A DNA stretch of 64,000 nt from Ignavibacteria bacterium (GCA_025612375.1 JAAXKN010000011.1:41503-105502), one strand, 5' to 3'. Positions 9,307 through 49,551 are shown, numbered from the stretch's first letter. Numbers and translations: made by a program. The notes: generated from the letters alone by a model not told the origin.

Positions 9307-9352
9307 TTCTAACCACCTTCAGTTTTATATTTCGCACATGGGAATTAAATAC

Positions 9353-9411
9353 AAAAAAGGAAAAGAGCAAGCAGAATATAAAAAGACAGGATTTCTCTTG
9401 CTCAATTTTCC
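9353..9411 (-). terminator. Terminator of the S9 peptidase gene
   Basis: The minus strand folds GGAAAA/TTTTCC plus GAGCAAG/CTTGCTC around an approximately 25-base loop, with two unpaired bases on one side, and is followed by a TTTTTT run. It lies just beyond the S9 peptidase stop codon. Confidence 0.65.
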
Positions 9412-9437
9412 TAAAAACTCCTTATTGATGCCGGAAA

Positions 9438-11513
9438 TTACTTACTAAAAGCCCTGTTTCTAATCATGAGTGTCATATCGTAAGGAGCCGGGTCGCCTCC
9501 CAGGTATTTATGGAACCAGTCCAGATGCGCGTTATAGTAAAGAGGCATCGATTTAACGTTACTGGGCCAGTGTCCGTCGTTCTTAAAAACGATCAGGCGT
9601 GAATCCACGCCCATTTTCTGCAGGGCTGTAAAGAACTCGAGGCTTTGCGTATAGGAAACCCTGTAGTCGCGTTCGCCGGTGACAATGAGAGCCGGGGTAA
9701 CAAAATTCTTCACAGATGCAGACGGATCCCACTTTTCATAAAATTTTGAGTTCCAGGGCTGGCCTTTCTGGTCGTACTCCGGGAACCAGAGTTCTTCAGT
9801 TGTTCCGAAGAAAGATTTCAGGTCATAGAGGCCCATCATTGAGGCTATGCATTTAAAGCGTTTTGTATGCCCTTCAAACCAGTCCATCATATAGCCGCCG
9901 TAGGACCAGCCCATAGCTCCCATGCGGTCTTTATCTACGTAAGGTAGTTTCTCGAGGGCGTCTGTAACCTTCATCAAATCCTGGAACACCTTTCCGCCGT
10001 AGTCGCCCGAGATCTCGTGTGTATATTCCTGCCCGTAGCCTGTTGATCCGTGGGGATTTGCAAAAGCGACCACATAGCCTGCACCGGGATAAACCTGCCA
10101 GTCGCCCCTGAAAGCATCCATCCACTGGCTCTGAGGCCCTCCGTGAACGTTTAAGATGAGGGGATACTTTTTATTCGGGTCGAAGTTATGAGGTTTAACA
10201 ATAAATACGTGGACATCCTTGCCGTCAGCTCCCTTAACCCAGATCTGTTCAGCAGGCCTTACATCCACCTCATCCAGGAACTCCTTGTTTGCGCTGGTCA
10301 GTTCCTTTACCTGTTTTGAAGCCAGGTCGAGGCTGAAGATTTCGCCCGGTTTTTCAACGGTTCTTTTGTTATAAACTATGAACTTTGTCTCCGGGGAGAG
10401 TCCGAAGCCGGAGATGGACTCGTCGCCTGAGACTTTGTCGATTTTTTCAGTTTCAATGTTAACGCGGTAAATGGGGCTATAGCCTTTTACTTCTCCGGTA
10501 AAATATATATCCTTTGAATTATCTGCCCATGCAAAGTCATCTACCCAGTTATCGAACTTCTCAGTAACAATTTTACTTTTTCCGGTCTGGCGGTCGTATA
10601 CGGCAATTCTGAAGCGGTCCGATTCATAGTTCGGGATCACCTGTTTCCTGTATGCTATATAGCGTCCGTCGGGAGAATAGATCGGGTTCCCGTCCCAGCT
10701 TTTGTTATCTGCGGTAATGTTTTTCGCCTCGCCTCCCGTAACAGGTACAAGCCAGAGGTCAGAATTTGTTGAAGATGCAGGGTCCTTAACCCTTTTGGAC
10801 ATAAAGCAGAGTTCCTTATTGTCGGGTGAGAAGTTAAAGCCTATGCCGCCGCCGAGCTGAAAAGTAGGAGATTCCCAGCTGCCCGGGGTAATATCTGTAT
10901 AATTTTCCCTGTCGAGGCTAAAAAGAATTATGTGCGTGAATCTTCCGTCTGAGTAGTCGGTCCAGTGGCGGAATAATAGTTGGTCAGCCATATGGGCCTG
11001 AATGGGGCCATTTTCCATGGCTTCTGCATTAAGTTTATTGCATTCCTGGTCTGCGCCGCATTCAGGGAACACCGATGCCGTGAAGGCAACAGTTTTACCG
11101 TCGGGTGACAAGACCGGGTCTGAGATGCCGCCATAGAAGTCCGTAAGCTTCTTTGCCTTAGAGCCTGAGATTTCCTGGTAATAAAGCTGCGGGCTTCCCT
11201 CTTTGGTGGAAATGTAATATATCCCCTCGCCTTTAGCGTCCCAGATGGGGTTGTATTCAGATTTCTCCTCTGTTGCAAAGCCTTTATTATCACTTCCGTC
11301 GCTGTTCATAATGAAAATATCGGTATTCGACTTCCCTTTTTCCATGTCGGAAGTTGAGATGGTATAGGCGATTTTCTTTCCGTCTGGAGAAAGGACGGGT
11401 GAGCCGACATTTTTTATTTTATACAGGTCAGCAATTGTAAAAGCCTTTTTCTGGGCAAATACGCTTGCAGAAATGAATGACAAAACGACTAAGAATAGGA
11501 TTTTAGCTTTCAT
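9438..11513 (-). CDS. Exported S9-family prolyl oligopeptidase (dipeptidyl/acylaminoacyl peptidase type)
   Basis: A 691-residue serine peptidase that removes short peptides from oligopeptides, probably in the periplasm. A signal peptide (MKAKILFLVVLSFISASVFAQ) is followed by a PD40/WD40-like propeller, with repeats such as PVLSPDGKTVAFTA and PIYSPDGRYIAYRK, up to about residue 400. The alpha/beta-hydrolase domain contains the full catalytic triad: S537 in GWSYGGYMM, D616 in GERDYRVSY and H648 in NDGHWPS. The length fits secreted S9C-type enzymes. It is monocistronic with a terminator. The exact substrate preference cannot be told from sequence. Confidence 0.93.
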   Translation of the reverse strand: MKAKILFLVVLSFISASVFAQKKAFTIADLYKIKNVGSPVLSPDGKKIAYTISTSDMEKGKSNTDIFIMNSDGSDNKGFATEEKSEYNPIWDAKGEGIYYISTKEGSPQLYYQEISGSKAKKLTDFYGGISDPVLSPDGKTVAFTASVFPECGADQECNKLNAEAMENGPIQAHMADQLLFRHWTDYSDGRFTHIILFSLDRENYTDITPGSWESPTFQLGGGIGFNFSPDNKELCFMSKRVKDPASSTNSDLWLVPVTGGEAKNITADNKSWDGNPIYSPDGRYIAYRKQVIPNYESDRFRIAVYDRQTGKSKIVTEKFDNWVDDFAWADNSKDIYFTGEVKGYSPIYRVNIETEKIDKVSGDESISGFGLSPETKFIVYNKRTVEKPGEIFSLDLASKQVKELTSANKEFLDEVDVRPAEQIWVKGADGKDVHVFIVKPHNFDPNKKYPLILNVHGGPQSQWMDAFRGDWQVYPGAGYVVAFANPHGSTGYGQEYTHEISGDYGGKVFQDLMKVTDALEKLPYVDKDRMGAMGWSYGGYMMDWFEGHTKRFKCIASMMGLYDLKSFFGTTEELWFPEYDQKGQPWNSKFYEKWDPSASVKNFVTPALIVTGERDYRVSYTQSLEFFTALQKMGVDSRLIVFKNDGHWPSNVKSMPLYYNAHLDWFHKYLGGDPAPYDMTLMIRNRAFSK

Positions 11514-28354: not shown

Positions 28355-28388
28355 AGGCTCCCCGGGATTTACCAGGGGAGCCTTTTTT
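28355..28388 (+). terminator. Terminator of the aldose 1-epimerase gene
   Basis: The stem AGGCTCCCC/GGGGAGCCT (28355-28363 with 28375-28383) closes an 11-base loop and is followed by a run of six T. Confidence 0.9.
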
Positions 28389-28543
28389 ATAAAAGGCATC
28401 TCTTCCCGCCGCTACCTTAAATTTACTTTTCAAATAAAAATTTTTTCTGAATAAAAATACTTTTCGAATAAAAAAGTTTTACTAATACCTCATCCTTAAA
28501 AAAGAAATTTGGTCTTTAATGCTCAATCAGGTAATTTTGAAGT

Positions 28544-28643: not shown

Positions 28644-29825
28644 TTGAAAAAGATTGCAGTAATATTCGGCACACGTCCGGATACCATAAAAATGGCTCCA
28701 ATTATACAGGAAATAAAGAAAAACAGTAAACAGTTTGAACTTTTAACCATTGCCACTGCCCAGCACAGGCAGATGCTCGACCAGGTTCTGCAGGTTTTTG
28801 ACATTAAACCTGATTACGATCTGAACATCATGAAGCCGAAGCAGACGCTTGCTTCAATAACAAAAAACACGATCGAAGAGCTTGACAACGTCTTCAGCAA
28901 AGAAAAGCCCGACATGGTTTTAGTTCAGGGCGATACCACTACAACATTTGTAGGCAGCCTGGCCTCCTTCTACAGGCAGATACCCGTAGGTCACATTGAG
29001 GCGGGTCTGAGGACAAACGACAAGGCAAATCCCTTCCCCGAAGAAATAAACAGAAGACTTACGAGCTCAATTACCGAGCTTCACTTTGCCCCCACAGAAA
29101 CGGCAAAAAAAGCACTCTTAAAAGAAAACATCGATCGCAAAACCGTATTTGTAACGGGAAACACGGTCATTGATGCCCTGAAGGTTTCAGTAAAGAAAAA
29201 ATACAAGTTTTCGATAATGAAACTGAATGAACTTGTAGGCCAGAAGAAGAAAATCGTACTGCTTACCATGCACAGGAGAGAAAATTGGGGAGCTCCGATG
29301 CAGGGTGCCTGCGATGCGGTAAAAAGACTTGCCATGGCTTATCCGGAGCTGAACTTCGTGTTTCCGGTGCATCTTAACCCGATTGTCAGGGATGTCGTAT
29401 TCCCTACACTGGACAAGATTGAAAATGTGCACCTGATAGAGCCTTTGGATTACATGGACTTCGTAAACCTTATGGCGAAATCCTACCTGATCATAACGGA
29501 TTCAGGCGGTGTTCAGGAGGAAGGGCCGCACTTCGGCATTCCGATTCTTGTATTAAGAAAAGTTACCGAACGCCCGGAGGCCGTAAAGTACGGGACTGTG
29601 AGACTGGTCGGCCTGGATGAAAACAAGATCTATTCAACGGCAAAAAAACTTATAGATGATAAAACATACTATAATAAGATAGCTTCAGCTGTTAACCCTT
29701 ATGGCGACGGCCTCTCGGCAAAAAGAACGGTTCAGATTATAAAGAACTATTTCGGCCTCTCCAAAGCTGCGGTAAATGAATTCATCCCCAAAGCCGGAAA
29801 TAAAAAATCCGGAAACAAAAAGTAA
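28644..29825 (+). CDS. wecB: UDP-N-acetylglucosamine 2-epimerase (non-hydrolysing)
   Basis: A 393-residue cytoplasmic enzyme interconverting UDP-GlcNAc and UDP-ManNAc. The WecB/MnaA marks are intact: the N-terminal FGTRPDTIKMAP (D instead of the commoner E at the fifth position), AQHRQMLDQVL, the catalytic aspartate in QGDTTTTF, the glutamates in HIEAGLRT and PFPEEINRR, and the histidine in MHRRENWG. The uridine-binding ITDSGGVQEEGP follows. It starts with TTG, 9 bases after an AAGGA site. As first gene of a synthase-type exopolysaccharide locus, it probably supplies ManNAc precursor. A specialised uronate epimerase (WbpI-like) cannot be excluded. Confidence 0.92.
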   Translation: MKKIAVIFGTRPDTIKMAPIIQEIKKNSKQFELLTIATAQHRQMLDQVLQVFDIKPDYDLNIMKPKQTLASITKNTIEELDNVFSKEKPDMVLVQGDTTTTFVGSLASFYRQIPVGHIEAGLRTNDKANPFPEEINRRLTSSITELHFAPTETAKKALLKENIDRKTVFVTGNTVIDALKVSVKKKYKFSIMKLNELVGQKKKIVLLTMHRRENWGAPMQGACDAVKRLAMAYPELNFVFPVHLNPIVRDVVFPTLDKIENVHLIEPLDYMDFVNLMAKSYLIITDSGGVQEEGPHFGIPILVLRKVTERPEAVKYGTVRLVGLDENKIYSTAKKLIDDKTYYNKIASAVNPYGDGLSAKRTVQIIKNYFGLSKAAVNEFIPKAGNKKSGNKK

Positions 29826-29845
29826 AGCCTGCGGTAAAACCTGGC

Positions 29846-29925
29846 ATAAAAACTGCACTTTTATAAAAAAAGCGTGCTGTTTTTATGGAAATTCAGCTCT
29901 TTGGGCCCGATCGGGCTCAAAGAGC
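29846..29925 (+). promoter_or_regulatory. Two consecutive hairpins between wecB and the deacetylase/hydrolase gene
   Basis: Hairpin one pairs ATAAAAAC-T-GCAC (29846-29858) with GTGC-T-GTTTTTAT (29874-29886), with one mismatch. Hairpin two pairs GCTCTTTGGGCCCG with CGGGCTCAAAGAGC (29896-29925), a 14-bp stem with one G-U pair and a two-base loop. A short T run (ATTTTT) follows nine bases later. Together they may act as an attenuator or an RNA-stability element. Confidence 0.6.
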
Positions 29926-30011
29926 AGGAAATTTTTACATGTAAATTTTTCCGGTGGTCATTCTACTTCTTTATTAAAAAAGGACCCTTTATACACTTTA
30001 ATGAAAAGCGC

Positions 30012-33000
30012 ATGAAACATATTAAAATACTCTTTCTTCTACTACTCACATTACTGGCTGTCTCACCAAGCTTTGCAGCAGGAAATGGGAATAAGAAAAT
30101 ACTGATAGTTGTTCAGGGCAGTTCAAACCTCAGAAATTATGCCATTGGCGATGCCAGACAGCTGGCGGCCCTGCTTGGACATTTTCAGACTGATGTCACC
30201 TACAAGGGCATGGACGATTACAAGCCCAGGGAATTAAACAGCTACGATTACACATTTTATATCGGTTTTTATGTAAAAGACCCCGTACCTCAGAAGTTTG
30301 CTGATGACGTCATAAGGACGAACAAGCCGGTCATATGGATGAACACCGGCATGGCTGAAAGCTCAAATAATAAAACTTTCAAAAATAAGTACGGCTTCTC
30401 GGTCTCAAGAATCGATTCCTCTTACCAGTTTGACCAGGTAAAGGCAAACAAAAAGATTTTTACCAAAGGGGAAGGCAAAAACAACATTATTGAAATCTCC
30501 GACAGGAAAAAAGTTGTTGTAATGGCTACGGCATATTCCACAAAAAAGAAAATGGAAGTGCCGTACATCATAAAGTCTGATAACCTGATCTACATTGCCG
30601 ACTCGCCTTTTTCCTATGCTACCGAAACCGACAGGTATCTTCTTTTTGCAGATATGCTTCATGACATTCTGCATGAAAATCACGAGAGCTCTCATTCAGC
30701 CATACTAAGAATTGAAGACATAAACCCCACAGACAGCCCGGACAAGATAAGAGAAGTGGTGGATGTACTCTCGGAGCGCGGTATACCTTTTCTTGTCGGC
30801 GTAATCCCATTTTATGTAAATCCTGGCGATGGCACAAGGCTCAGCCTTTCGGACAAGCCCGACCTGGTGGATGCTCTTAAGTATGCCGTAAGAAACGGCG
30901 GGTCAATCGTCATGCACGGCTCGACTCACCAGTACAGGGGCATTACAGCAGGAGACTTCGAATTCTGGGACGGCAATGCAGACAAGGTTATAAAAAACCA
31001 GACAGAAGCAGACATAAGGCAGAAGATTGAAATGGGCATTCAGGAGCTAATGAAAAACGGCCTCTACCCTGTTGCCTGGGAGACGCCGCACTATACGGCT
31101 TCTTTCCTTCTTTATAAAACAGTAAGCCAGTACTTCTCTACTGCAGTTGAACAGAGGCTCGCAATTGAAAGCTCAGACTACAGCCAGTACTTCCCTTACG
31201 TCATAAATAAAGATCTTTTCGGGCAGAAGATATTTCCCGAAAACCTGGGATACATTCCTCTTGACAAGGATATTAACGTAAGCCGCAAGTACGTGCAGAA
31301 TATAATTAAGGGGGCAAAGGTAAACCTTAATGTCAGGGACGGCTTTGCAGCCTGCTTTTTCCATTCATTTCTGGACGTGAGCCTCTTAAAAGAGCTCGTT
31401 GACGGGGTGCGTGCCCTTGGCTACAACTACATAGACCTGAAGGATTACAATAACTGGGTAAGAACCAATAACAGGATAATACTTACCGGTTCGCAGGATT
31501 ATTCAGTAAAATTAAACGATCAGTTTCTTACCGAGTCTTACATAAACGATAAAGGCGAGGTAGAAAAGAAAACCATTTCAGATAAGAAGCTCTCGGGCCT
31601 TATAACAAAAAACATCAAGCTTCAGCCCGGGGAGCTTTACAAGGCTGAACCTATAGAGTTCAAGGAATATGAACCTTCATTTTTTGAAAAGCTGGTAAAT
31701 TTCTTCAAAAAGATTTACAACAGTCTTTTTCATACAGATGAAAAATGGCGCAATGCCGAGGTTGCAGTTCTCTGGAACCACTATGCCAACGGCGCGGCAT
31801 ATAACGACCAGGCCTCACTGGTTGCAGCTTTCAAGAGCGTTAACATAAATGTCGATACGATATTTACAGGAGAGGCAATCAACCCCAAAGGCTACAGCCT
31901 GCTTATTGTTCCTTACGCCGCAGTAGACTCGCTTCAGCCCAAGGATTACGACATAATTACACAGTACGTTGAGCAGGGCGGCAACCTGATTACCGATACT
32001 AAGAATGAAGTTGCAAAGGAACTGGGAATTAAGTTCAGCCAGACCAGAATAAAAGTTCATGGAATAAGGGATAAGTTCTTCATGGAAGAGAAGATATTCT
32101 GGAGAGAAGGCGAGCTTATGAACAAGCTGGAAATTGAGGACAAAGTTGACGAGATATTCTCCACGGACGAAATGACGGGAGCACCTGTTGAGATCGGCAA
32201 GCCGTTCGGCAAAGGAAAGGTTCTGTTCTTAGGCTCAAGGTTTGATCCCCTTTCGCAGCACGGGTACAGCCTTTACCCGTTCCTGCTCGAACACGTCAGA
32301 AAGTACTTCCAGTTAAGGCCCGCAGTAAGGCGCGACAACCTGGAGGTATACTTCGATCCCGGATTCAGGCACACTACGAGCACAGAGGATCTGGTCAAGC
32401 AGTGGGTACACGAGGGTATAAGAATAATTCATGTTGCAGGCTGGCACCAGTATCCCAAGTATACTTATGATTACAAGAAACTAATTGAGCTGGCACATGC
32501 CAACGGAATACTGGTTTATGCATGGCTGGAGCCCCCGCAGGTAAGCCTGAAGTTTTACCAGGAGCATCCGGAGTGGAGAGAGAAAAACTACAAGGGTGAG
32601 GATGTAAGGCCTTCGTGGCGCTATCCTGTTGCTCTTACCGATCAGGAGTGCCTGAAGGCAATGACGACGGAGTTTACCAGGTTCCTGGGATCGTATCAGT
32701 GGGACGGCGTAAACCTGGCAGAGCTTTATTTCGAGGCCGGTAAAGGGCTGGAGAATCCGAACCTTTACACTCCGATGCATGAAAGCGCACAGAAGGAGTT
32801 CAAACAGAGATATAATCTGGATTTGAAGAAGATCTTTACTCCCGGAACGGCTTCATACTGGAAGACCAACCCCGTCGTAAAGTCTCTTGTGACAGAGTAC
32901 AGGATAAACAAGCTTTCAGAAGTCTATGAAAGGCTTCTTACAGCATTTAACGCCTTCGCACAGAAGAAGAAGGGCTTTCAGGTAATTGTAACTGCGATGG

Positions 33001-33953
33001 ACAGCTACGGGTCTCCTGAGTTAAAGGATTATATAGGCGTCGATATGACGAGCATAATTTCACTGCAGAAAAAGCATAATTTCCTCCTGCAGGTAGAAGA
33101 TCCGCAGAACCTCTGGTCAACCGACCCGATGCGTTATGTTGAAATAGGAAGGAAGTATAATAGCTTGATCGGCGACAGCACAAAGCTGCTTCTGGACTTA
33201 AACATACTTACATTCAGAAACAACGAGTCTCTGGCAACCCCCTTCCCGACAGAGATACAGACCGGAACGGAAAGCTTCCTTCTTGTAAAAGCAGCCTCCA
33301 TGGGAGCACCAAGACTAACCATTTATGCCGAGTCGAGCGTAAATCCGCAGGATATGTTCTTCCTGCCTTATGCCCTTGCAAGCAAGGTTGAGTACCGTTT
33401 TACAGGAGACGGATATGAGGTAAACTCGCCCTACTCATTTACAATTCGTCTTCCGAAGGACATAAAGGAAATTCTGCTCGACGGAAGCCCAATTGCGCCT
33501 TCGAGGGAGAATTCATATCTGATTCCGGCAGGAAAGCATTTTATAAAGCTCAACATGAATATCACAAATACATTCTCCACGCATGAGCTTCAGACAAGGA
33601 TCATGTCATTTACGGGCAATATCCTTTCTGTCGCATATGGAATGCAGGGGATAAAATTTGAATACGATTCTGAGGCGCGGAACGTTATTTCCCTCAACCG
33701 TGAGCCGACCAGTGTTAAGGTTGACGGACACGATTACAGCTTTACGGTATTGAAAGGAAGCGACTGCTACAGCATATACCTGCCCACAGGGCGCCACCAG
33801 GTGGAACTGGTTGCAGGAGATGCGTTCTCTTACGGGATCAACCTGACAAGCTTATGGTCATCTAACGGAATTGCAATTTTCGGATCAATTGCAATCATGA
33901 TGCTCATGGTAATGTACTTTACGATGAAAATATATAAAAGGAAATACCGTTAA
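30012..33953 (+). CDS. Exported PelA-like fusion: Rossmann-like, DUF2334 deacetylase, GATase-like and TIM-barrel hydrolase domains
   Basis: A 1313-residue exported protein. A signal peptide (MKHIKILFLLLLTLLAVSPSFAAG) is followed by a Rossmann/GATase-like domain (27-225). Next is a DUF2334 polysaccharide-deacetylase-like domain (about 227-490), with the metal-site acidic pair in ILRIEDINP (E235, D236) and HGSTHQ (302-307). A second GATase-like segment (about 583-770) and a TIM-barrel glycosidase-like domain (about 775-1100, VYFDPGFRHT, IIHVAGWHQY, VYAWLEPPQ) come next. A beta-rich region and one C-terminal membrane helix (about 1280-1305) close the chain. PelA of the Pel system also joins hydrolase, Rossmann-like and deacetylase parts. 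I infer that it deacetylates and trims the polymer made by the adjacent synthase. The ATG at 30012 fits the signal peptide; it overlaps the stop of a four-codon minicistron starting at 30001. Confidence 0.82.
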   Translation: MKHIKILFLLLLTLLAVSPSFAAGNGNKKILIVVQGSSNLRNYAIGDARQLAALLGHFQTDVTYKGMDDYKPRELNSYDYTFYIGFYVKDPVPQKFADDVIRTNKPVIWMNTGMAESSNNKTFKNKYGFSVSRIDSSYQFDQVKANKKIFTKGEGKNNIIEISDRKKVVVMATAYSTKKKMEVPYIIKSDNLIYIADSPFSYATETDRYLLFADMLHDILHENHESSHSAILRIEDINPTDSPDKIREVVDVLSERGIPFLVGVIPFYVNPGDGTRLSLSDKPDLVDALKYAVRNGGSIVMHGSTHQYRGITAGDFEFWDGNADKVIKNQTEADIRQKIEMGIQELMKNGLYPVAWETPHYTASFLLYKTVSQYFSTAVEQRLAIESSDYSQYFPYVINKDLFGQKIFPENLGYIPLDKDINVSRKYVQNIIKGAKVNLNVRDGFAACFFHSFLDVSLLKELVDGVRALGYNYIDLKDYNNWVRTNNRIILTGSQDYSVKLNDQFLTESYINDKGEVEKKTISDKKLSGLITKNIKLQPGELYKAEPIEFKEYEPSFFEKLVNFFKKIYNSLFHTDEKWRNAEVAVLWNHYANGAAYNDQASLVAAFKSVNINVDTIFTGEAINPKGYSLLIVPYAAVDSLQPKDYDIITQYVEQGGNLITDTKNEVAKELGIKFSQTRIKVHGIRDKFFMEEKIFWREGELMNKLEIEDKVDEIFSTDEMTGAPVEIGKPFGKGKVLFLGSRFDPLSQHGYSLYPFLLEHVRKYFQLRPAVRRDNLEVYFDPGFRHTTSTEDLVKQWVHEGIRIIHVAGWHQYPKYTYDYKKLIELAHANGILVYAWLEPPQVSLKFYQEHPEWREKNYKGEDVRPSWRYPVALTDQECLKAMTTEFTRFLGSYQWDGVNLAELYFEAGKGLENPNLYTPMHESAQKEFKQRYNLDLKKIFTPGTASYWKTNPVVKSLVTEYRINKLSEVYERLLTAFNAFAQKKKGFQVIVTAMDSYGSPELKDYIGVDMTSIISLQKKHNFLLQVEDPQNLWSTDPMRYVEIGRKYNSLIGDSTKLLLDLNILTFRNNESLATPFPTEIQTGTESFLLVKAASMGAPRLTIYAESSVNPQDMFFLPYALASKVEYRFTGDGYEVNSPYSFTIRLPKDIKEILLDGSPIAPSRENSYLIPAGKHFIKLNMNITNTFSTHELQTRIMSFTGNILSVAYGMQGIKFEYDSEARNVISLNREPTSVKVDGHDYSFTVLKGSDCYSIYLPTGRHQVELVAGDAFSYGINLTSLWSSNGIAIFGSIAIMMLMVMYFTMKIYKRKYR

Positions 33954-33961
33954 ATTAAGCC

Positions 33962-34075
33962 GCAGGCACTAAAATCCTCTGATTGGAAATAATGGTCTGA
34001 TGTTTTTGAAGAGGTTTGGTCTTGGAGGTGCATAAAACTTTTTAGCCGTTGGGAAAAACGGGTTTTAGTGCCTGT
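33962..34075. repeat. Long-range inverted repeat between operon genes two and three
   Basis: GCAGGCACTAAAATCC (33962-33977) and GGGTTTTAGTGCCTGT (34060-34075) pair over 16 positions with two G-U pairs, enclosing 82 bases. The element begins eight bases after the stop codon of the PelA-like gene and ends 56 bases before the synthase start. Its core matches the hairpin upstream of wecB. Confidence 0.75.
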
Positions 34076-34130
34076 GGTTTTTAATAAAAGTAATACTTAC
34101 TACTCTACTATTTTAATTAAAGGAAAATCA

Positions 34131-35459
34131 ATGTCAGTCTTAGAAGTAGATTTAAGCTTTTTATTTGTCGTTGCTGTCATTCTGATATGGTTCATGATCG
34201 GCTATCAGTTTATACTGACCGTATACGGCTATTTCAACTATATGAAGAGCCTGAAGGAGAAGAAGGAAGTTGACGCTAAAGAATATGACCTCCCTTCCTG
34301 CACCATTCTTATTCCTGCTCATAATGAAGATAAGGTAATCGGACAAACGATTGAAGCAATGTTAAGGTTGAATTATCCAAAAGACAAGCTTGAAATAATT
34401 GTTATCAATGACGGATCGAAAGACAGGACTAAAGAGATCATACAGCATTATGCATCTTTAGACAGCCGCGTGGTTCTTTTTGACGTTCCCAAGGGCGAAG
34501 GCGGAAAGGGAAAAAGCCGCGCGCTTAACCTCGGGATCAGGCAGGCTAAAAACGATATCATAGCCATTTATGATGCCGACAACACCCCGGATGCGAATGC
34601 ACTAAGGTACCTGGTAATTCAGCTTACAACACATAAGGACCTGGGTGCGGTGCTCGGGAAATTCAGAACAGTAAACAAAAACACAAACCTTCTTACAAAG
34701 TTCATCAATATTGAAACCCTCAGCTTCCAGTCGATGCTTCAGGCAGGACGCTGGCAGATGCACAGGATAGCAACATTGCCAGGGACAAACTTTGTAATGT
34801 GGAAGTGGCTCATATACAAGCTCGGAGGATGGGATGAAGAAGCCCTCACTGAAGACTCAGAGCTCAGCATAAGAATTTACCAGGAAGGCTACAAAATTAA
34901 GTTTATCCCCTATTCAATTACATACGAACAGGAGCCGCAGGAGTGGAAGGTCTGGATAAAGCAGCGCATGAGATGGGTCAGGGGCAACAACTACGTAATT
35001 GCAAAGTTCTTCAAGCAGATACCGAAGTTCAAGAACAAGCGTCTGGCTTTTGATCTTTTATACAACCTTTCTCTTTATTACGTATTTTTTGCCGCAATTC
35101 TGATTTCTGACGTTCTTTTCATAATCAGTGCTTTGAACCTGGTCAGTATTGCACTTCCCGGCCCTTACACTTTTGTTTGGATCATGGCGTTCTTCCTGTT
35201 TATTCTTGAAATTACGCTTGCCATATCTTTTGACGAGGAAGAAAGCATAAAGAATATATTTCTCATAGTGCTAAGTTATTTCAGCTACTGCCAGCTTTGG
35301 ATATATATTGTTGTGAAGGCCATTTATTCAGAATACATAAAAAGAGAAAAACGCACCTGGGATAAAACAGTGAGGTTTGAAGTAAAGCCCTCGCAGATTA
35401 CTCAGCCCCAGGTGGAAACAACAAAAAAGGAGCTTAAGGATGAACTGCAAAGCAAATAA
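34131..35459 (+). CDS. Processive GT2 exopolysaccharide synthase (PgaC/BcsA-like)
   Basis: A 442-residue inner-membrane glycosyltransferase that should polymerise and extrude a glycan. One N-terminal helix (about 8-34) precedes a GT2 domain with all synthase motifs: D94 (INDGSKD), DAD 148-150, TED 240-242 (the catalytic base) and QRMRW 278-282. The last is typical of processive synthases such as cellulose, hyaluronan and PNAG synthases. Three or four helices follow (about 310-420) and a polar tail ends the chain. AAGGA lies 9 bases before the ATG. It is flanked by a deacetylase/hydrolase and an outer-membrane barrel, as in PNAG and Pel loci. No PilZ or c-di-GMP domain is attached. The start of the next gene overlaps its 3' end by 20 bases. 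Confidence 0.92.
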   Translation: MSVLEVDLSFLFVVAVILIWFMIGYQFILTVYGYFNYMKSLKEKKEVDAKEYDLPSCTILIPAHNEDKVIGQTIEAMLRLNYPKDKLEIIVINDGSKDRTKEIIQHYASLDSRVVLFDVPKGEGGKGKSRALNLGIRQAKNDIIAIYDADNTPDANALRYLVIQLTTHKDLGAVLGKFRTVNKNTNLLTKFINIETLSFQSMLQAGRWQMHRIATLPGTNFVMWKWLIYKLGGWDEEALTEDSELSIRIYQEGYKIKFIPYSITYEQEPQEWKVWIKQRMRWVRGNNYVIAKFFKQIPKFKNKRLAFDLLYNLSLYYVFFAAILISDVLFIISALNLVSIALPGPYTFVWIMAFFLFILEITLAISFDEEESIKNIFLIVLSYFSYCQLWIYIVVKAIYSEYIKREKRTWDKTVRFEVKPSQITQPQVETTKKELKDELQSK

Positions 35460-36792
35460 GACACTGCTAATAGCCGCAGCCATTATAGTTTTATTTTCTT
35501 CGAAGGCATTTCCGCAGTTTTCATTTTACGGCAACACGAGCTTCGGTTATTATAATAATCCACTTTATAATTACCAGAGGAAGCCCGATCAGCTAAGGCA
35601 ATCGTATCTGGAGATGAATTACCTGAAAGATTTTGAGGCTTCAAGGCTTTCTTTCAGCTACGTCTCGGGCCTTATGCTTTTTAACCAGTTAAGCGACAGA
35701 AATTTTTACGAGCACAACATTTTCGCCAAATATAACCTGAGGCTAACAAAGAAGCCTTCGGCCGGCTTGGAAAAAGGGGCTGCTCCCATGGATGAAGAAG
35801 CCTCAGAAGGTGATGATTCCACGTCAACAGAGTCTGAGGAGATAGAGCCCGCAGAAGAGGAAGAATCGGCAGAAAGCGTAACGGAAGACTCCAGCGCCAG
35901 CTACCTCAACTTTACTCTTCAGGCAGGAGCAAGGCACGACAAAGATGCATTCAGGGAATTTGACAACTTCGGCACCGGGTTTACTGCGTCGTATAAAACC
36001 GTTCCCGGAGACCTCTTCTCGCTCAGGATTACAAATTCCGCAGGACTGAGAAGTTACGCCTATATTTCTGAACTTTCCAACTTTACAGACCAGCTCTCCG
36101 TTCAGATATATAACAGATATAACGTATCCTATCAGTACGGCCTCTCACTTTCAGGAGGCATAAAGTATTACACACAGTCGATCTACGACACGACAAAGTT
36201 TGAGACCAAAAGAAGCTTCAACCAGAAGAGCCAGGGTAAAGGCAAGCTCGGATCAAAGATAACGGTCCCATCATCAAAGCAGATACTCCTGGAGCCACAG
36301 GAAAACGGCACCTCGCAGTTTACGGCAGGAGTATTTTTTAATAAAAGGTGGGAAAGCCAGACGGCATTAAGAACCCTCTTCCTTTACAGGTATAACCCCA
36401 AGACCCTGACCAGGTATCTGGCACAATACGCCAACACGTCAATGCTTTCAGAAGATTTATACAATGACTTCTTCAGCTATGAGGGCTTTGAATCGAAAAT
36501 TGCCGTGGACCAGCCCCTGCCATGGAATATGCAGATGTCTATGGAATACAACTTCCAGCAGAAGAACTTTGAAGCGCCTGCTTTGAACCTGGACGGTGTG
36601 CAGATAAATAATGAAAAACGCAATGACCTGACCAATTCAGTAGAAGTATACGTTTCTAAAAACTTTACACTTTTCCCTGGCTTCAGCCTCGACGTAATGC
36701 TCGGCACCGGAGTCTTAAGAAACCAGTCGAACGATGACTATAACGATTTTTCATCTTATCATTTCACGGGCACAATAGGAATAGGATTCTAA
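35440..36792 (+). CDS. Outer-membrane beta-barrel protein with acidic loop, probable polysaccharide export
   Basis: A 450-residue protein that I cannot place in a named family. A signal peptide (MNCKANKTLLIAAAIIVLFSSKAFP) is followed by alternating aromatic beta strands (for example FYGNTSFGYYNN, LSFSYVSGLMLF, YNVSYQYGLSLSG) throughout. The chain ends in GTIGIGF, with the C-terminal phenylalanine typical of barrels inserted by BamA. Residues about 108-150 form a very acidic, serine-rich insertion (DEEASEGDD, EEIEPAEEEE) likely to be an extracellular or periplasmic loop. It overlaps the synthase gene by 20 bases and is followed four bases later by the next gene, so it belongs to the operon. 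I infer an export-channel role equivalent to PgaA or PelB. Confidence 0.78.
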   Translation: MNCKANKTLLIAAAIIVLFSSKAFPQFSFYGNTSFGYYNNPLYNYQRKPDQLRQSYLEMNYLKDFEASRLSFSYVSGLMLFNQLSDRNFYEHNIFAKYNLRLTKKPSAGLEKGAAPMDEEASEGDDSTSTESEEIEPAEEEESAESVTEDSSASYLNFTLQAGARHDKDAFREFDNFGTGFTASYKTVPGDLFSLRITNSAGLRSYAYISELSNFTDQLSVQIYNRYNVSYQYGLSLSGGIKYYTQSIYDTTKFETKRSFNQKSQGKGKLGSKITVPSSKQILLEPQENGTSQFTAGVFFNKRWESQTALRTLFLYRYNPKTLTRYLAQYANTSMLSEDLYNDFFSYEGFESKIAVDQPLPWNMQMSMEYNFQQKNFEAPALNLDGVQINNEKRNDLTNSVEVYVSKNFTLFPGFSLDVMLGTGVLRNQSNDDYNDFSSYHFTGTIGIGF

Positions 36793-36796
36793 GAGA

Positions 36797-38914
36797 ATGA
36801 AAATAAAAATACTCCTTCTTTTATTTATAACGATGAACATAACCGCCAGAGCCGAGGACTGGCGCTGGCAGAACCCCAGGCCGCAGTCGAATACGCTCTG
36901 GGCGGTCTCATTTTATAATGAATTTTACGGCTATGCCGTTGGCGAAAGCGGCACAATTTTATTCAGCCCCGACGCCGGGAAAAGCTGGGAGATACAGTTT
37001 GAAGCTATTACAGATAACTTCAGGAGCATATCTGTCGTTGATTCAATTACAGCCTTTATTGCAGGCGATTACGGCGCCATATTTGCCACAACCAACGGAG
37101 GAACCAACTGGATACAGCAGAACGACAAGAACGGAAGACCGAATAACACTAACGGACTTAACTCAATTTTCTTCCTCGACAAAAACTTAGGGTGGGCTGC
37201 AGGAGATAACGGGACCATTCTTACAACCCTGAACGGAGGGAAAACCTGGTCTCAGCAGTCGCAGGGCGTTCCAACAAACATTAGCATCAACAGCATTTGC
37301 TTTATAAGCAGCACAAACGGTTTTGCCGTTGGCTCAAACGGAACTGTTCTTTATACAACAAATGGCGGAACGAGCTGGAGCTCAAAAGCAACCGGTGAAG
37401 CTACCACGGTTATAAACACGATGGTTAAGTTCCTTGACCAGTCGACAGGCTTTATCCTGGGAAGCGGCGGAACAATGTATGTCACTCGTAATGGCGGCGC
37501 GAGCTGGAGCCCAATTGCCTCAGGCGTTACAGAAGGCTTAAACGACATTACTTTTACTTCCCCATCGGAATACTATGTTGCGGGCGATAACGGCACCATG
37601 CTGCATTCAGTTAATTCCGGAAGCAGCTGGACAAATGAAGCTCTTGGCATTTATACTTCGGTACACGGCCTGTCCAGAACTCCGGGAACACTTTTGGCTG
37701 TTGGGGATTTCGGGATGCTGGCAAGCAAAACCGGAACCGGCGCCTGGAACTTCACAAATAAAGGCACTGCTCCAAGCGTCAACTGGATTACCTTCGGCAA
37801 CAACATGAATGGCTTTGCCGGCGGGCAGTGGGGTTATATGCTTAAGACCAATGACGGCGGGAAAACCTGGGACAACATAACCAAGGGGATTACAGGAGAC
37901 TCATTCTACGGCGCAGCTGCCGTGGGAAAAGATAACCTCTGGGTTGTTGGAGACATGGGAATACTTCTGCATACCTCTGATGGCGGGGCTACATGGACGC
38001 AGCAGATAAATACACAGCTTGATTCCAAGACGATTGAAGCTGTAAGCTTTGTCGACCTCAATAACGGCTGGGCTGTTGGTGAACAGGGTAAGCTAATCCA
38101 TACAATGGACGGAGGCAAAACCTGGACATACCAGAATCCCGGCGTAACAAGTATTTTATTCGGAATAAAATTCAAAGACACACAGAACGGCTGGATATGC
38201 GGCGAAAACGGGCTCATACTCCATACGCAAAATGGCGGACAAAGCTGGACAAAGCAAAATGAGAATACAGGCTATGCGCTTGTAAACGTGGACTTCCGAG
38301 ACTTAAACAACGGTTATGCTTCAGGCTCAAACGGCACAATATTAAAGACCATTAACGGCGGACAAACCTGGACACGCCTTACTACAAACACTACGGCTAA
38401 TATAAATTCTGTTGAAAGCAGGTCGGCGGGCGTTGTTTATGCCGTTGGCGACGGAGGACTCGTTCTTTACAGCACTGATGGCGGCACAACATGGACACAA
38501 CAGTGGGCTTCAACCGCATACGACCTTTTCTCAATGCATATGATGAATGATTCCACGCTCTGGATCTCGGGCGACTGGGGGACTATACTTGCAAAAGGGA
38601 ACCCCGCGCTTGTTACAGGAGTAGAACAGAAAGGCGCTCCGGCAGTCCCGGCAAAGTTCAGCCTTTCACAGAACTACCCGAATCCTTTTAACCCTGAGAC
38701 GACAATTAAGTTCAGCCTTGAAAGAAGCGGCAATGTTACCCTTAAGGTCTATAACATACTCGGGCGTGAGGTGGCAACGCTTTTAGACGGCTTTAAGCTA
38801 TCAGGAGAATACTCCATCCATTTTAACGCAAAGAACGTTCCAAGCGGAATATATTTTTATGAATTAAGACAGGGCCAGTATTCAGAAATTAGGAAGATGT
38901 CGATTCTGAAGTAA
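36797..38914 (+). CDS. Secreted Ycf48-like repeat protein with T9SS sorting domain
   Basis: A 705-residue exported protein. A short signal peptide (MKIKILLLLFITMNITARA) precedes a chain of about eleven Ycf48/BNR-like repeats, each with GWAAGDNGTILTTLNGGKTW-type sequence, which fold as beta-propellers in related proteins. The C-terminal segment from about 622 is a T9SS type A sorting domain (LSQNYPNPFNPETTIKFSL, VYNILGREVATLL, ending KMSILK). The gene starts four bases after the barrel gene and precedes a strong terminator. It is therefore the last gene of the exopolysaccharide operon. A surface role in binding or organising the polymer is plausible but not shown. Confidence 0.9.
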   Translation: MKIKILLLLFITMNITARAEDWRWQNPRPQSNTLWAVSFYNEFYGYAVGESGTILFSPDAGKSWEIQFEAITDNFRSISVVDSITAFIAGDYGAIFATTNGGTNWIQQNDKNGRPNNTNGLNSIFFLDKNLGWAAGDNGTILTTLNGGKTWSQQSQGVPTNISINSICFISSTNGFAVGSNGTVLYTTNGGTSWSSKATGEATTVINTMVKFLDQSTGFILGSGGTMYVTRNGGASWSPIASGVTEGLNDITFTSPSEYYVAGDNGTMLHSVNSGSSWTNEALGIYTSVHGLSRTPGTLLAVGDFGMLASKTGTGAWNFTNKGTAPSVNWITFGNNMNGFAGGQWGYMLKTNDGGKTWDNITKGITGDSFYGAAAVGKDNLWVVGDMGILLHTSDGGATWTQQINTQLDSKTIEAVSFVDLNNGWAVGEQGKLIHTMDGGKTWTYQNPGVTSILFGIKFKDTQNGWICGENGLILHTQNGGQSWTKQNENTGYALVNVDFRDLNNGYASGSNGTILKTINGGQTWTRLTTNTTANINSVESRSAGVVYAVGDGGLVLYSTDGGTTWTQQWASTAYDLFSMHMMNDSTLWISGDWGTILAKGNPALVTGVEQKGAPAVPAKFSLSQNYPNPFNPETTIKFSLERSGNVTLKVYNILGREVATLLDGFKLSGEYSIHFNAKNVPSGIYFYELRQGQYSEIRKMSILK

Positions 38915-38940
38915 AACAATTTTTCCCAAAAGTTTATTAA

Positions 38941-38976
38941 GGCATGCGCTTAGAAAGCGCATGCCTTTTTTATTTT
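38941..38976 (+). terminator. Terminator of the exopolysaccharide operon
   Basis: An 11-bp stem GGCATGCGCTT/AAGCGCATGCC with a three-base loop is followed by TTTTTT and further T-rich sequence. It overlaps the last codons of the convergent SIMPL gene by two bases. Confidence 0.93.
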
Positions 38977-45934: not shown

Positions 45935-46453
45935 ATGAGCGATACTTTCAAACTTTTTCAGATTGATCAGGATATTCAGGGTCTGCTTGATTCTGATTCG
46001 AGCTATTCCGAGGAAACAGGAGAGCTTTTGCCCGAGGTCCGTGATAAACTGGAAACTCTTAGTCAGTCGCGTTCTGATCTGGTATACGGTCTGGCACAGT
46101 ACAATCTTTACTGTGCGGATATGGAAGAAGTGGTAAAAAAAGAGATAAAGCGTCTTCAGGCCGTTCAGACGAGGCTGCAGAAAAAGGCAGAATCGGTAAA
46201 GAAAACGCTGAAAGCTTTCATTCCTGAAGGTGAAAATGTGGATTTCGGGACTGTAAAGGTAAGCTGGAGAAAATCCTCGCACGTTATAACAGATGAGGTG
46301 CTCGATCTGGAAGAACTCGAAAAAGCTTGTCCTCAGCTGGTTAAGCACTCGCGTGAACTTAAAAAAGAGGAAGTAAAGAAATATTTCAAAGCAACAGGAT
46401 TAGTACCGCTCGGCTGCGAAATAATAGAAAAAAATAATCTTATCATTGGCTAA
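45935..46453 (+). CDS. Siphovirus Gp157-like protein
   Basis: A 172-residue protein of the Gp157 family, found in many siphoviruses next to single-strand annealing or recombination genes. The N-terminus has the early helical part (LFQIDQDIQGLLD), and a long coiled-coil-like helix spans about residues 30-95 (KLETLSQSRSDLVYG, then VVKKEIKRLQAVQTRLQKKA). The conserved end contains DFGTVKVSWRKSS and GLVPLGCEI, where the family usually has a beta-hairpin. The role is unknown; it has been linked to phage resistance and recombination. It precedes the annealing-protein gene by 21 bases on the same strand, so the two form a unit. The GAGAAAGG site lies upstream. Confidence 0.85.
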   Translation: MSDTFKLFQIDQDIQGLLDSDSSYSEETGELLPEVRDKLETLSQSRSDLVYGLAQYNLYCADMEEVVKKEIKRLQAVQTRLQKKAESVKKTLKAFIPEGENVDFGTVKVSWRKSSHVITDEVLDLEELEKACPQLVKHSRELKKEEVKKYFKATGLVPLGCEIIEKNNLIIG

Positions 46454-46474
46454 AAACCATTAGGAGAAGAAACT

Positions 46475-47350
46475 ATGGAAAATGCTGTTTCAAGCTATGA
46501 ACAGAACAATTTGCAGAATATTGCCGAAAATGAGACAACAAATCTGACTCCTTTCAACAACATGTACCAGAAGGCAAGCCTTCTTACAGTAACGGAGAAA
46601 GAGCAGAAAGCACTCGAGGCGCCGCTTAATCCGGAAGAAGTTGAGATACGCCCGGACGGACTGATCTATTATCCACAGGTCTTTTACCGTGAAAAGCTGA
46701 ATTCGATCTTTGGAATCGGCCAGTGGGCACTGATCCAGCACTCGATCTCAAAGATAGGCAATACGCTCTGTTTTGACGGTTCGCTTTATGTAAGAGGCTG
46801 CTTCGTCAGCCGTGCACTCGGTGAGCATGAGTACTATGAAAACAACAGGAATACTAGCTGGGCCTCGGTCTATGAAGCCGCAAAGAGTGACTGTCTGGTA
46901 AGGTGCTGTAAGGATCTGGGAATCGCCAAGGAATTGTGGCAGCCCGCCTACGGCCGCGACTGGGTTAAAAAGTATGCCGTAAAGGTTTTTGTTGAGGTAA
47001 AGGACCGTCAGACCGGTAAGACTGAAACAAAAGCCCAGTGGAGAAGAAAAGACGCCGATCCATTCTGGAACGAAAAAGGGATTGTGCCAAGCGCAAAATA
47101 TGAAGCTCCGCAGCAGAAAAAGCCTCCCCAGGCAGCCCAGAGTGAACCTGCAGTTGAAGCTGAACCGCAGAACCTTGTGGATTCTGTAAGGGATACGCTT
47201 CCCAAGCTGAATAACTTAAACGAAATCAAGGATTACTGGGAGGAGATCTTCCCTCTTTATAACAAACTGCCCGTTGAATCCAAAAGGATTGTCAACAAGG
47301 AATTCAAGTATTACAGAGACGCCGTAAAGTCTTCCGGTCTCTTCCAGTAA
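46475..47350 (+). CDS. Mgm101/Rad52-type single-strand annealing protein
   Basis: A 291-residue protein related to the mitochondrial nucleoid protein Mgm101 and phage Rad52-like annealing proteins. The core lies at about residues 45-175: NPEEVEIRPDGLIYYPQVFY, REKLNSIFGIGQWAL, a glycine-rich beta region, then ASVYEAAKSDCLVRCCKDLG and WVKKYAVKVFVEV. The sequence agrees well with the Mgm101 signature PDGxIYxPxxxYRxxLNxxFGxGxW. Such proteins anneal complementary single strands and are common in phage recombination modules. The C-terminus (about 205-235) is proline- and glutamine-rich, and the last part is helical. It follows the Gp157-like gene and ends at a terminator. No other phage genes flank the pair. 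Confidence 0.85.
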   Translation: MENAVSSYEQNNLQNIAENETTNLTPFNNMYQKASLLTVTEKEQKALEAPLNPEEVEIRPDGLIYYPQVFYREKLNSIFGIGQWALIQHSISKIGNTLCFDGSLYVRGCFVSRALGEHEYYENNRNTSWASVYEAAKSDCLVRCCKDLGIAKELWQPAYGRDWVKKYAVKVFVEVKDRQTGKTETKAQWRRKDADPFWNEKGIVPSAKYEAPQQKKPPQAAQSEPAVEAEPQNLVDSVRDTLPKLNNLNEIKDYWEEIFPLYNKLPVESKRIVNKEFKYYRDAVKSSGLFQ

Positions 47351-47409: not shown

Positions 47410-47604
47410 GTATGTACCCTCTTTTTACAGCCCCCAGGCCTCTGCCGCATTCAGAGTACGCATGCCCCCATCTGTGCAATATTAGTCACACTTTAAACTT
47501 AAAATATTTACTAAATGTTACATTTTAGTCCGATTTAACAATTCTTCTAATGGCACCTTTCTTTCCTGAGGTTGAGCAGATTTTTAACTACGGGAAAGAC
47601 GCCA

Positions 47605-49551
47605 ATGAAAAAGATTTTATTATTTACACTGTTTGCTCTAATTTTAATGAATACTAAGAGCTGGGCAATAAACTACTATGTTGATGCCTCCAGAGGAAGC
47701 GACGCAAACTCAGGCCGCTCGAGCTCACTCCCCTGGAAAACAATTCAGAAGGCTGCAAACTCCATGGCTGCAGGAGATACATGCTTTGTCGTTCCGGGCA
47801 GCTATCCTGAAAGAATAAACGTCAGCACCTCAGGCACACAGAACGCTCCAATTGTATACAAGGCACTTGGGCAGGGTGCTGTAACAAAAGGTTTTACAAT
47901 AATTGCAAACTACGTTACGGTTGACGGCTTCGAGGTAACAGAGACAAGCCGCACAAGCTGGGTTGAGGGAGCAGGCTTTCACATCAAAGGGCAGTACGTA
48001 AAAGTCCTTAATAACTACATTCACATTACCTACCGCGAAGGTATCAGGCTCGGCGATGATGCGGCTTCCACAGCCACGGCCAACTGCCTGCTTCAGAATA
48101 ATAAGATTATTCGCGTAGGCCAATCAGGAATTCTTGTCTGCGGCGCAAATAACATGGTAAGAGGAAATGAAATTGCAGGCGTTGTACAGTGGGCCGTAAC
48201 AAATCCGCAGAACTTGGATGCCGTGGGTTTAAGGTTCTTCGGTACAGGCCACATTATCTGCAATAATTATATTCATGACATTTTGCTCAGTGATCCTGAA
48301 AACGGCAATGCCCCTCACGTCGATGCTGTACAAACATGGGGACCTGCCACATACATGACAATTGAAAACAACACATTTGCCATGGCAGAGCCTACCTTAA
48401 ACAAGCAGATATCCATGGTTACAGAAGTTAATGCCCCGGTTAACGACATCACATACAGAAACAACGTTTGCTATAATACTTTAAGAGGCCTTAATATCTA
48501 CGGAAGCCACGTTTCCGGTACTTCCACACCTATTGAAAACCTGAAGGTTGAGAACAATACATTTGACGGCTTCGTGGATAACCCGGTTGAACTGCACGAC
48601 TGCCCGAATGCAAAGGTAATGAATAATATTTTCAACAATACTGTTGAGCTCTATATCGATGATAAAACCGCCTCAGGAGGCCTTCAGATAGGCTATAACA
48701 GCTTTTTCCATACTGACGGTACACTTCCTGCCGGAACGCATTACCAGGGCGATCTGTGGGGCACAGACCCTAAATTTGTCAGCCCCTCTCAGAGAGATTA
48801 CCACCTCCAGGCAACATCAGGACTGATCGACAAAGGAGCTGTTCTTTCTGATGTTACAGCTGACCTTAGCGGAATTTCCAGACCCCAGGGTACGTCATAT
48901 GACATGGGTGCTTATGAATATGCATCTTCAACCGTTATTGTAAACCCGACTACAGATGTATCATCCCCCAAGGTTATGGGAGCCAGCCTGACTTCATCTT
49001 CCAAACTGGTAATAACATTCTCTGAAAAGATTGCTTCGGCTGAAGCCCTGCTAAAGTCGAACTACAGCATTTCCAATGGAATAACAGTACGCGGCGTAAC
49101 TATGAATTCAACCCAGGACGGTGTTATTCTTTCCACTTCAAAGCACAGAAGAGGGATTGTTTACACTGTAACGGTAAGTAACATAAAAGATCTGGCTGGC
49201 AACGTGATCTCATCATTTGATAACAAAGCACAGTACCAACTTGGTATCGGCAAGGAAGCTGAGGCTGCGGATGAAGATATGACGCCTGAGAACTACGAGC
49301 TTTCACAGAACTTCCCGAATCCTTTTAACCCCTCAACGGTTATTAAGTACTCTGTTCCGGAGAACTCTTTTGTAACACTTAAGGTGTACGACATGCTGGG
49401 TAAGGAAGTTGCAACGCTGGTACATGAGCAGAAGTCACAGGGAAGCTACGAGGTGCAGTTTGATGCCGGAAAGCTTTCAAGCGGAACTTATATTTATCAG
49501 ATGAAGACAAACAATTTTATTGAAAACAAAAAGATGATAATTGAGAAGTAA
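47605..49551 (+). CDS. Secreted right-handed beta-helix protein with T9SS sorting domain
   Basis: A 648-residue exported protein. A signal peptide (MKKILLFTLFALILMNTKSWA) precedes a DUF1565-like segment (YYVDASRGSDANSGRSSSLP) and a right-handed parallel beta-helix (about 60-450) with repeats such as KVLNNYIH, GILVCGANNMVRGNEI and MTIENNTF. An SbsA/Ig-like domain follows (about 455-550, LVITFSEKIASAEAL). A T9SS type A tail then runs from about 565 (LSQNFPNPFNPSTVIKYSV, VYDMLGKEVATLV, ending KKMIIEK). Beta-helix proteins of this type include polysaccharide lyases, epimerases and sugar-binding proteins. It is paralogous to the lipoprotein at 50759. The ATG at 47605 is chosen because it fits the signal peptide. 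Confidence 0.9.
   Translation: MKKILLFTLFALILMNTKSWAINYYVDASRGSDANSGRSSSLPWKTIQKAANSMAAGDTCFVVPGSYPERINVSTSGTQNAPIVYKALGQGAVTKGFTIIANYVTVDGFEVTETSRTSWVEGAGFHIKGQYVKVLNNYIHITYREGIRLGDDAASTATANCLLQNNKIIRVGQSGILVCGANNMVRGNEIAGVVQWAVTNPQNLDAVGLRFFGTGHIICNNYIHDILLSDPENGNAPHVDAVQTWGPATYMTIENNTFAMAEPTLNKQISMVTEVNAPVNDITYRNNVCYNTLRGLNIYGSHVSGTSTPIENLKVENNTFDGFVDNPVELHDCPNAKVMNNIFNNTVELYIDDKTASGGLQIGYNSFFHTDGTLPAGTHYQGDLWGTDPKFVSPSQRDYHLQATSGLIDKGAVLSDVTADLSGISRPQGTSYDMGAYEYASSTVIVNPTTDVSSPKVMGASLTSSSKLVITFSEKIASAEALLKSNYSISNGITVRGVTMNSTQDGVILSTSKHRRGIVYTVTVSNIKDLAGNVISSFDNKAQYQLGIGKEAEAADEDMTPENYELSQNFPNPFNPSTVIKYSVPENSFVTLKVYDMLGKEVATLVHEQKSQGSYEVQFDAGKLSSGTYIYQMKTNNFIENKKMIIEK

Follow-up and report, generated by a model that had tools for sequence, protein, structure and literature searches.

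The locus described here raises the question of which polymer is made by five consecutive genes of an Ignavibacteria bacterium, and of how the proposed machinery relates to the synthase-dependent exopolysaccharide systems already known. The genes lie on the plus strand of the window (the whole stretch of 64,000 nucleotides that was analyzed), and all five ORFs reported by the first-pass annotation were confirmed in the sequence. They encode a WecB/MnaA-type UDP-GlcNAc 2-epimerase, which would supply UDP-ManNAc (28644-29825), a 1313-aa fusion of a DUF2334 domain and a predicted PgaB-like TIM barrel (30012-33953), a processive GT2 polysaccharide synthase of the PssC type (34068-35459), a predicted outer-membrane beta-barrel of 450 aa as candidate exporter (35440-36792) and an accessory Ycf48-like beta-propeller with a T9SS sorting domain (36797-38914). 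The epimerase and fusion genes are separated by 186 bases and the fusion and synthase genes by 114-177 bases, depending on which of two possible synthase starts is used, while the GT2 and 450-aa genes overlap by 20 bases and a 4-base gap precedes the Ycf48-like gene. A terminator-like hairpin with a T run, read by eye from the sequence, is located 5' of the epimerase gene (approximately 28356-28390), and the last gene is followed on the same strand by a terminator-like hairpin with a 13-pair stem and a T tail (38939-38967). Given these flanking hairpins, it is plausible that the five genes form a single transcription unit. The epimerase-fusion gap also holds a 30-base near-perfect palindrome (29896-29925), possibly an attenuator hairpin, of a kind expected zero times in shuffled sequences. 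Its sequence is not kept in the two nearest relatives and it had no Rfam match, so a conserved regulatory element in this gap was rejected.

The kinship of the synthase is central to the question of the polymer. The D, DAD, TED and QRMRW motifs of a processive GT2 enzyme had been noted beforehand, and the corresponding positions (D115, D169xD171, TED263 and Q299xxRW303) are indeed invariant or nearly so among 42 aligned synthases; the protein carries TM helices along with this complete motif set. Homologues align from about residue 22 of the 463-aa ORF, and the real start is thus probably the ATG at 34131, giving 442 aa. Identity reaches 43% to Listeria PssC, vs. 21-29% to PgaC, IcaA and BcsA. 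The comparison with known synthase clades suggested by the first-pass annotation was carried out with two trees, in which the window clade grouped with PssC and with synthases of Enterococcus, Acinetobacter and Lactobacillaceae (support 93/90 and 92/92, the latter value for the Pss-clade branch being short of full support), and joining it to PgaC/IcaA was rejected (AU p=0.008). BcsA, NodC and the Comamonadaceae NfrB-like synthase form long branches in these trees and their placement is unsure. Judged from these sequence comparisons, the synthase belongs with Listeria PssC, outside the PgaC/IcaA clade.

Concerning the fusion, translation from the ATG at 30012 yields a 1313-aa protein that begins with a signal peptide; this start lies close to that of homologues, the ORF itself being open to 29874. 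An N-terminal domain (about residues 20-220) is followed by the DUF2334 deacetylase-like domain (residues 230-465, 5.7e-49), the sole Pfam match above cut-off in the protein, and then by a GH42M-like domain (about residues 590-760), which sequence comparison also recovers in 38 of 39 members. According to AlphaFold and Foldseek, a PgaB-like TIM barrel follows (about residues 770-1110), and beta domains lie between it and a C-terminal TM helix predicted from hydropathy (about residues 1282-1307). Since the protein has a signal peptide and ends with this helix and K/R residues after it, its two enzyme halves are expected on the periplasmic side, held at the inner membrane next to the synthase by the protein's own C-terminal helix. 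In the DUF2334 half, D236, H302 and H306 (HxxxH) and H451 represent the NodB-type Asp-His-His metal site and the motif-5 His of CE4/NodB enzymes, and they are kept in 37 of 38 DUF2334 domains, including those of Streptomyces, Burkholderia and Comamonadaceae. When the DUF2334 profile was compared with the PDB, the best four matches were all CE4 deacetylases, although individually weak (E 0.007-0.3). Neither hhalign of DUF2334 with the IcaB/PgaB deacetylases nor that of DUF4434 with the second half of the fusion gave a signal, the alignments being too shallow, and phmmer of the fusion against the PDB returned no match.

The second half was modeled with AlphaFold from 39 relatives (mean pLDDT 87.6), and Foldseek matched the model to PelA (9cgy), the PgaB C-terminal domain (TMt 0.68 over the PgaB domain), Cwp19 and GH42 enzymes. 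Invariant acidic residues of the TIM-barrel half include E904, D898 and D997. The PgaB-like TIM barrel together with the NodB-like D-H-H site suggests that the fusion is built like PgaB. This likeness is one of fold and architecture, hhalign of the deacetylase halves having given no signal. The deacetylase/glycosidase fusion proposed earlier thus retains its main lines, an intact NodB-like site and a predicted PgaB-like fold, with the structure model covering the second half; deacetylation and hydrolysis would be its presumed activities. In the literature searched we found no description of a fused deacetylase/hydrolase partner of a PssC-related synthase. DUF2334, a family scarcely mentioned there, would gain a testable function as a ManNAc-polymer deacetylase.

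The gene arrangement recurs in relatives only in part. Among 149 genomes of the class searched with the fusion (E<=1e-20), 39 gave a match, own genome counted; the match was essentially full-length in 38 and confined to the DUF2334 half in one, and full-length matches outside the own genome showed 42-61% identity. In the class loci inspected, the GT2 gene comes after the fusion. When 84,980 species genomes were scanned with a DUF2334 alignment, 229 relatives were obtained, the best 80 of which were analyzed and belong to Ignavibacteria, Bacteroidales, Acidobacteria/Terriglobia, Chlorobiaceae, Kapaibacterium and Spirochaetes. Among these best 80 of 229, the fusion is a single ORF in 74 loci (most of the remainder being cut by a contig end or frame-broken) and a GT2 was seen in 70, the contig stopping too early in the others. 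The invariant core hence consists of the 1313-aa fusion and the GT2 synthase. It spans at least five phyla, with loci from Ignavibacteriota, Bacteroidales, Acidobacteriota, Chlorobiota and Spirochaetota, and its arrangement is not due to chance. The conservation that the first-pass annotation proposed to look for holds for this pair and fails for the barrel and the T9SS cargo. Within the same best 80 of 229, barrel homologues occur 3' of the GT2 gene in a minority of loci and sometimes upstream, while no barrel or cargo gene was detected in the loci of Bacteroidales and Acidobacteriota, and many of those in Ignavibacteriota likewise gave none. The barrel was accordingly rejected as a core component, and both genes are lineage-specific. 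Parts of the fusion also occur separately. The DUF2334 half stands alone in locus L063 (G141:C13, approximately 8001-10154) as a 725-codon ORF with no synthase adjoining. Stand-alone copies of the glycosidase half, lacking a TM helix, adjoin the operon in some Bacteroidales and lie elsewhere in the own genome. The copy in the latter (G000:C15:82035-83990; L064, L069) shows 31% identity, and similar genes in Bacteroidales loci L117, L119 and L120 face the operon.

As regards the outer membrane, the 450-aa protein matched no family. AlphaFold predicted about 16 long strands for it (pLDDT 76), and Foldseek retrieved OmpG, CymA, AlgE, OprD-type porins and PelB; among 17 relatives, 4 gave SlipAM. 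The earlier suggestion of an outer-membrane barrel is in keeping with this beta-barrel prediction. The structural matches fit a polymer channel and a general porin alike, and export of the polymer through the barrel would be one reading of the model. The Ycf48-like protein matched PSII_BNR (3e-61) and Por_Secre_tail (3e-11). It had been proposed to link the polymer to surface proteins; Ycf48-like genes do recur near the core in roughly 15 loci (best 80 of 229), in varying arrangements, but about 16 Ycf48-type proteins are encoded in the own genome, and we have rejected the role as polymer link. A further T9SS-tailed protein, with a beta-helix, a Big_5 domain and a weak chondroitinase B match, is encoded at 47572-49551 of the window and is possibly a secreted polysaccharide lyase.

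The nature of the sugar is approached through the epimerase, which scores 494 bits with TIGR00236 (WecB/MnaA; cut-off 210, E=3e-148) and has all of the QGDTT, HIEAG, FPEE and MHRREN motifs. In 33 of the 73 loci with room (from the best 80 of 229), its gene immediately precedes the fusion; in over half it is not adjacent. At least one WecB-type gene is present in all 38 class genomes examined, and such genes are common anyway; non-adjacency is therefore no argument against ManNAc, and presence is equally unspecific. WecB-type epimerases adjoin PssC-type or DUF2334-linked synthases independently in Streptomyces, Acinetobacter, Latilactobacillus sakei and Comamonadaceae. On the plasmid pKCA54 of Latilactobacillus sakei (L169, 4986-8556), for instance, an operon flanked by IS elements carries a PssC-type GT2, a GH8 and a WecB gene. 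There is no UDP-ManNAc dehydrogenase in the operon of the window, which makes an aminouronate polymer unlikely. The claim that the epimerase points to a ManNAc-containing polymer thus gains from the PssC kinship and the recurrent WecB neighbors, and we infer ManNAc as the likely unit, the identity of the polymer having been deduced in this way.

A comparison with described systems places the locus between several of them. In Listeria, the pssA-E operon (PMC4125290) fits the order of membrane protein, DUF2334 protein, GT2, BcsB and GGDEF protein, and a beta-1,4-ManNAc chain bearing alpha-1,6-Gal has been reported as its product (PMC5422440). The window shares with it the PssC-type GT2 and a DUF2334-type protein encoded directly upstream, an order seen in the window and in all related loci with enough sequence (best 80 of 229). 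However, the window operon lacks the BcsB-like subunit (PssD) and the degenerate GGDEF receptor (PssE), and has in addition an epimerase and a predicted outer-membrane barrel. Its DUF2334 domain keeps the metal site and forms one chain with a PgaB-like glycosidase. Listeria PssB (L070, 4479-5975), annotated as DUF2334, scores only 23 bits to this family and is without all four of the predicted metal/acid residues. It is hence probably not an active deacetylase, and the DUF2334 role shared with Pss may be structural rather than catalytic. The YdaJKLMN proteins of Bacillus subtilis are grouped here with the Pss type and were likened to the window by their description. No BcsB (PF03170) match was obtained in the whole genome by a search in which the E. 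coli and B. subtilis controls did match, no PilZ domain was found in it or in 23 relatives, and its one GGDEF protein is on another contig. The annotated lack of an attached PilZ or GGDEF regulator can thus be extended to PilZ genome-wide, and the system is unlikely to be controlled by c-di-GMP via the usual receptor domains. A cellulose (Bcs) assignment was rejected, BcsB and PilZ both being absent. With BcsB and GGDEF receptor missing, we classify the locus as a variant of this kind from a diderm bacterium, and not as a Pss system.

The PNAG- and Pel-like logic put forward at first is reflected in the PgaB-like architecture of the fusion and in the PelA fold match, and not in the synthase, which groups with PssC and not with PgaC. 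Similarly to PgaABCD of E. coli, the window has a synthase, an exported fusion of predicted deacetylase and TIM-barrel glycosidase, and a candidate outer-membrane channel. Unlike PgaABCD, its synthase is of another clade, DUF2334 replaces the usual CE4 deacetylase domain, large extra domains are present, the fusion has a C-terminal TM anchor where PgaB is a lipoprotein, and the operon lacks PgaD and the TPR domain of a PgaA-type porin. The locus would hence work like PNAG systems in its predicted deacetylase-hydrolase fusion while its synthase sides with Pss by sequence. The NGR polymer of E. coli (NfrA, NfrB, YbcH, WecB) has been proposed to be ManNAc-based because, among the enzymes of the ECA pathway, it requires WecB alone (PMC8669472), and resembles the window in this proposal and in the involvement of WecB. 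NfrB, however, is a distantly related GT2 that carries a c-di-GMP-binding MshEN domain, and NfrA is a TPR porin, while the window GT2 had no MshEN match and the barrel no NfrA_C match. A Comamonadaceae plasmid (L082; CP099603.1, 262510-276009) carries at 2743-11689 genes for WecB, an NfrB homologue (the GT2, 39.5%), a small protein, DUF2334, an NfrA_C porin and a DUF4434/YbcH homologue; by its gene content this operon is of the NGR type, with an added deacetylase-like DUF2334 protein and an epimerase of its own. For C. difficile 630, a locus of GT2, BcsB, WecB homologue, CE4-like deacetylase and glycoside hydrolase was predicted to yield a partly deacetylated ManNAc-rich EPS (PMC7710045); as compared by description, it differs in its monoderm host, the presence of BcsB, unfused genes and a GH113. 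Given the PssC-related synthase, the Listeria DUF2334-GT2 pair and the ManNAc proposals for NGR and C. difficile, calling the system undescribed was too strong.

Taken together, we consider it likely that the locus is a diderm, BcsB-less member of the Pss/NGR kind of synthase-dependent exopolysaccharide systems, producing poly-ManNAc that is probably partly deacetylated. The epimerase would make UDP-ManNAc, and the PssC-type GT2 would polymerize it and move the chain across the inner membrane. The exported, inner-membrane-anchored fusion would strip some N-acetyl groups through its DUF2334/CE4-like half and cut or trim the chain with its PgaB-like TIM barrel. The 450-aa barrel is the candidate exit through the outer membrane, and the T9SS Ycf48-like protein would be an accessory surface protein. 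A PNAG-type system, in which the GT2 would polymerize GlcNAc, the fusion would be the counterpart of PgaB and the epimerase would belong to a different pathway, appears unlikely to us. The PgaB-like second half would fit it, and so would the WecB-type genes in all genomes searched; PgaC_IcaA is also the best NCBIfam match of the GT2, yet with 174 bits vs. a cut-off of 422. Such a system is at odds with the exclusion of the synthase from the PgaC/IcaA clade (AU p 0.008), its 43% identity to a ManNAc-polymer synthase, the repeated and independent adjacency of the epimerase, and an operon with neither PgaD nor a TPR-type PgaA.

We regard a mixed or decorated heteropolymer as quite improbable, be it a ManNAc chain branched with Gal or one in which ManNAc and another sugar alternate: Listeria Pss does carry galactose branches (PMC5422440), but the operon has no second glycosyltransferase and no UDP-ManNAc dehydrogenase. 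It is very hard to reconcile the full D, DxD, TED and QxxRW set and TM helices of the GT2, or the joining of a deacetylase-like domain to a chain-cutting fold as in PNAG/Pel systems, with a short cell-envelope or protein-linked glycan and no exported matrix polymer. The barrel and cargo would then be chance neighbors, which would agree with their not being found in many loci and with the several members of both families in these genomes. If the preferred poly-ManNAc system is true, a Gram-negative counterpart of the Listeria Pss polysaccharide would be widespread in at least five phyla, and Pss, NGR and the C. difficile prediction would be tied together via common WecB and DUF2334-like partners. 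Only tentatively do we extend this to a widespread undescribed diderm class making a cationic, partly de-N-acetylated poly-ManNAc, with a single inner-membrane-anchored deacetylase-hydrolase taking the place of both PgaB and BcsB, and without an attached c-di-GMP receptor. Finally, at 45935-47350 of the window, Siphovirus Gp157-like and Mgm101-type recombination genes adjoin, perhaps as a prophage remnant.
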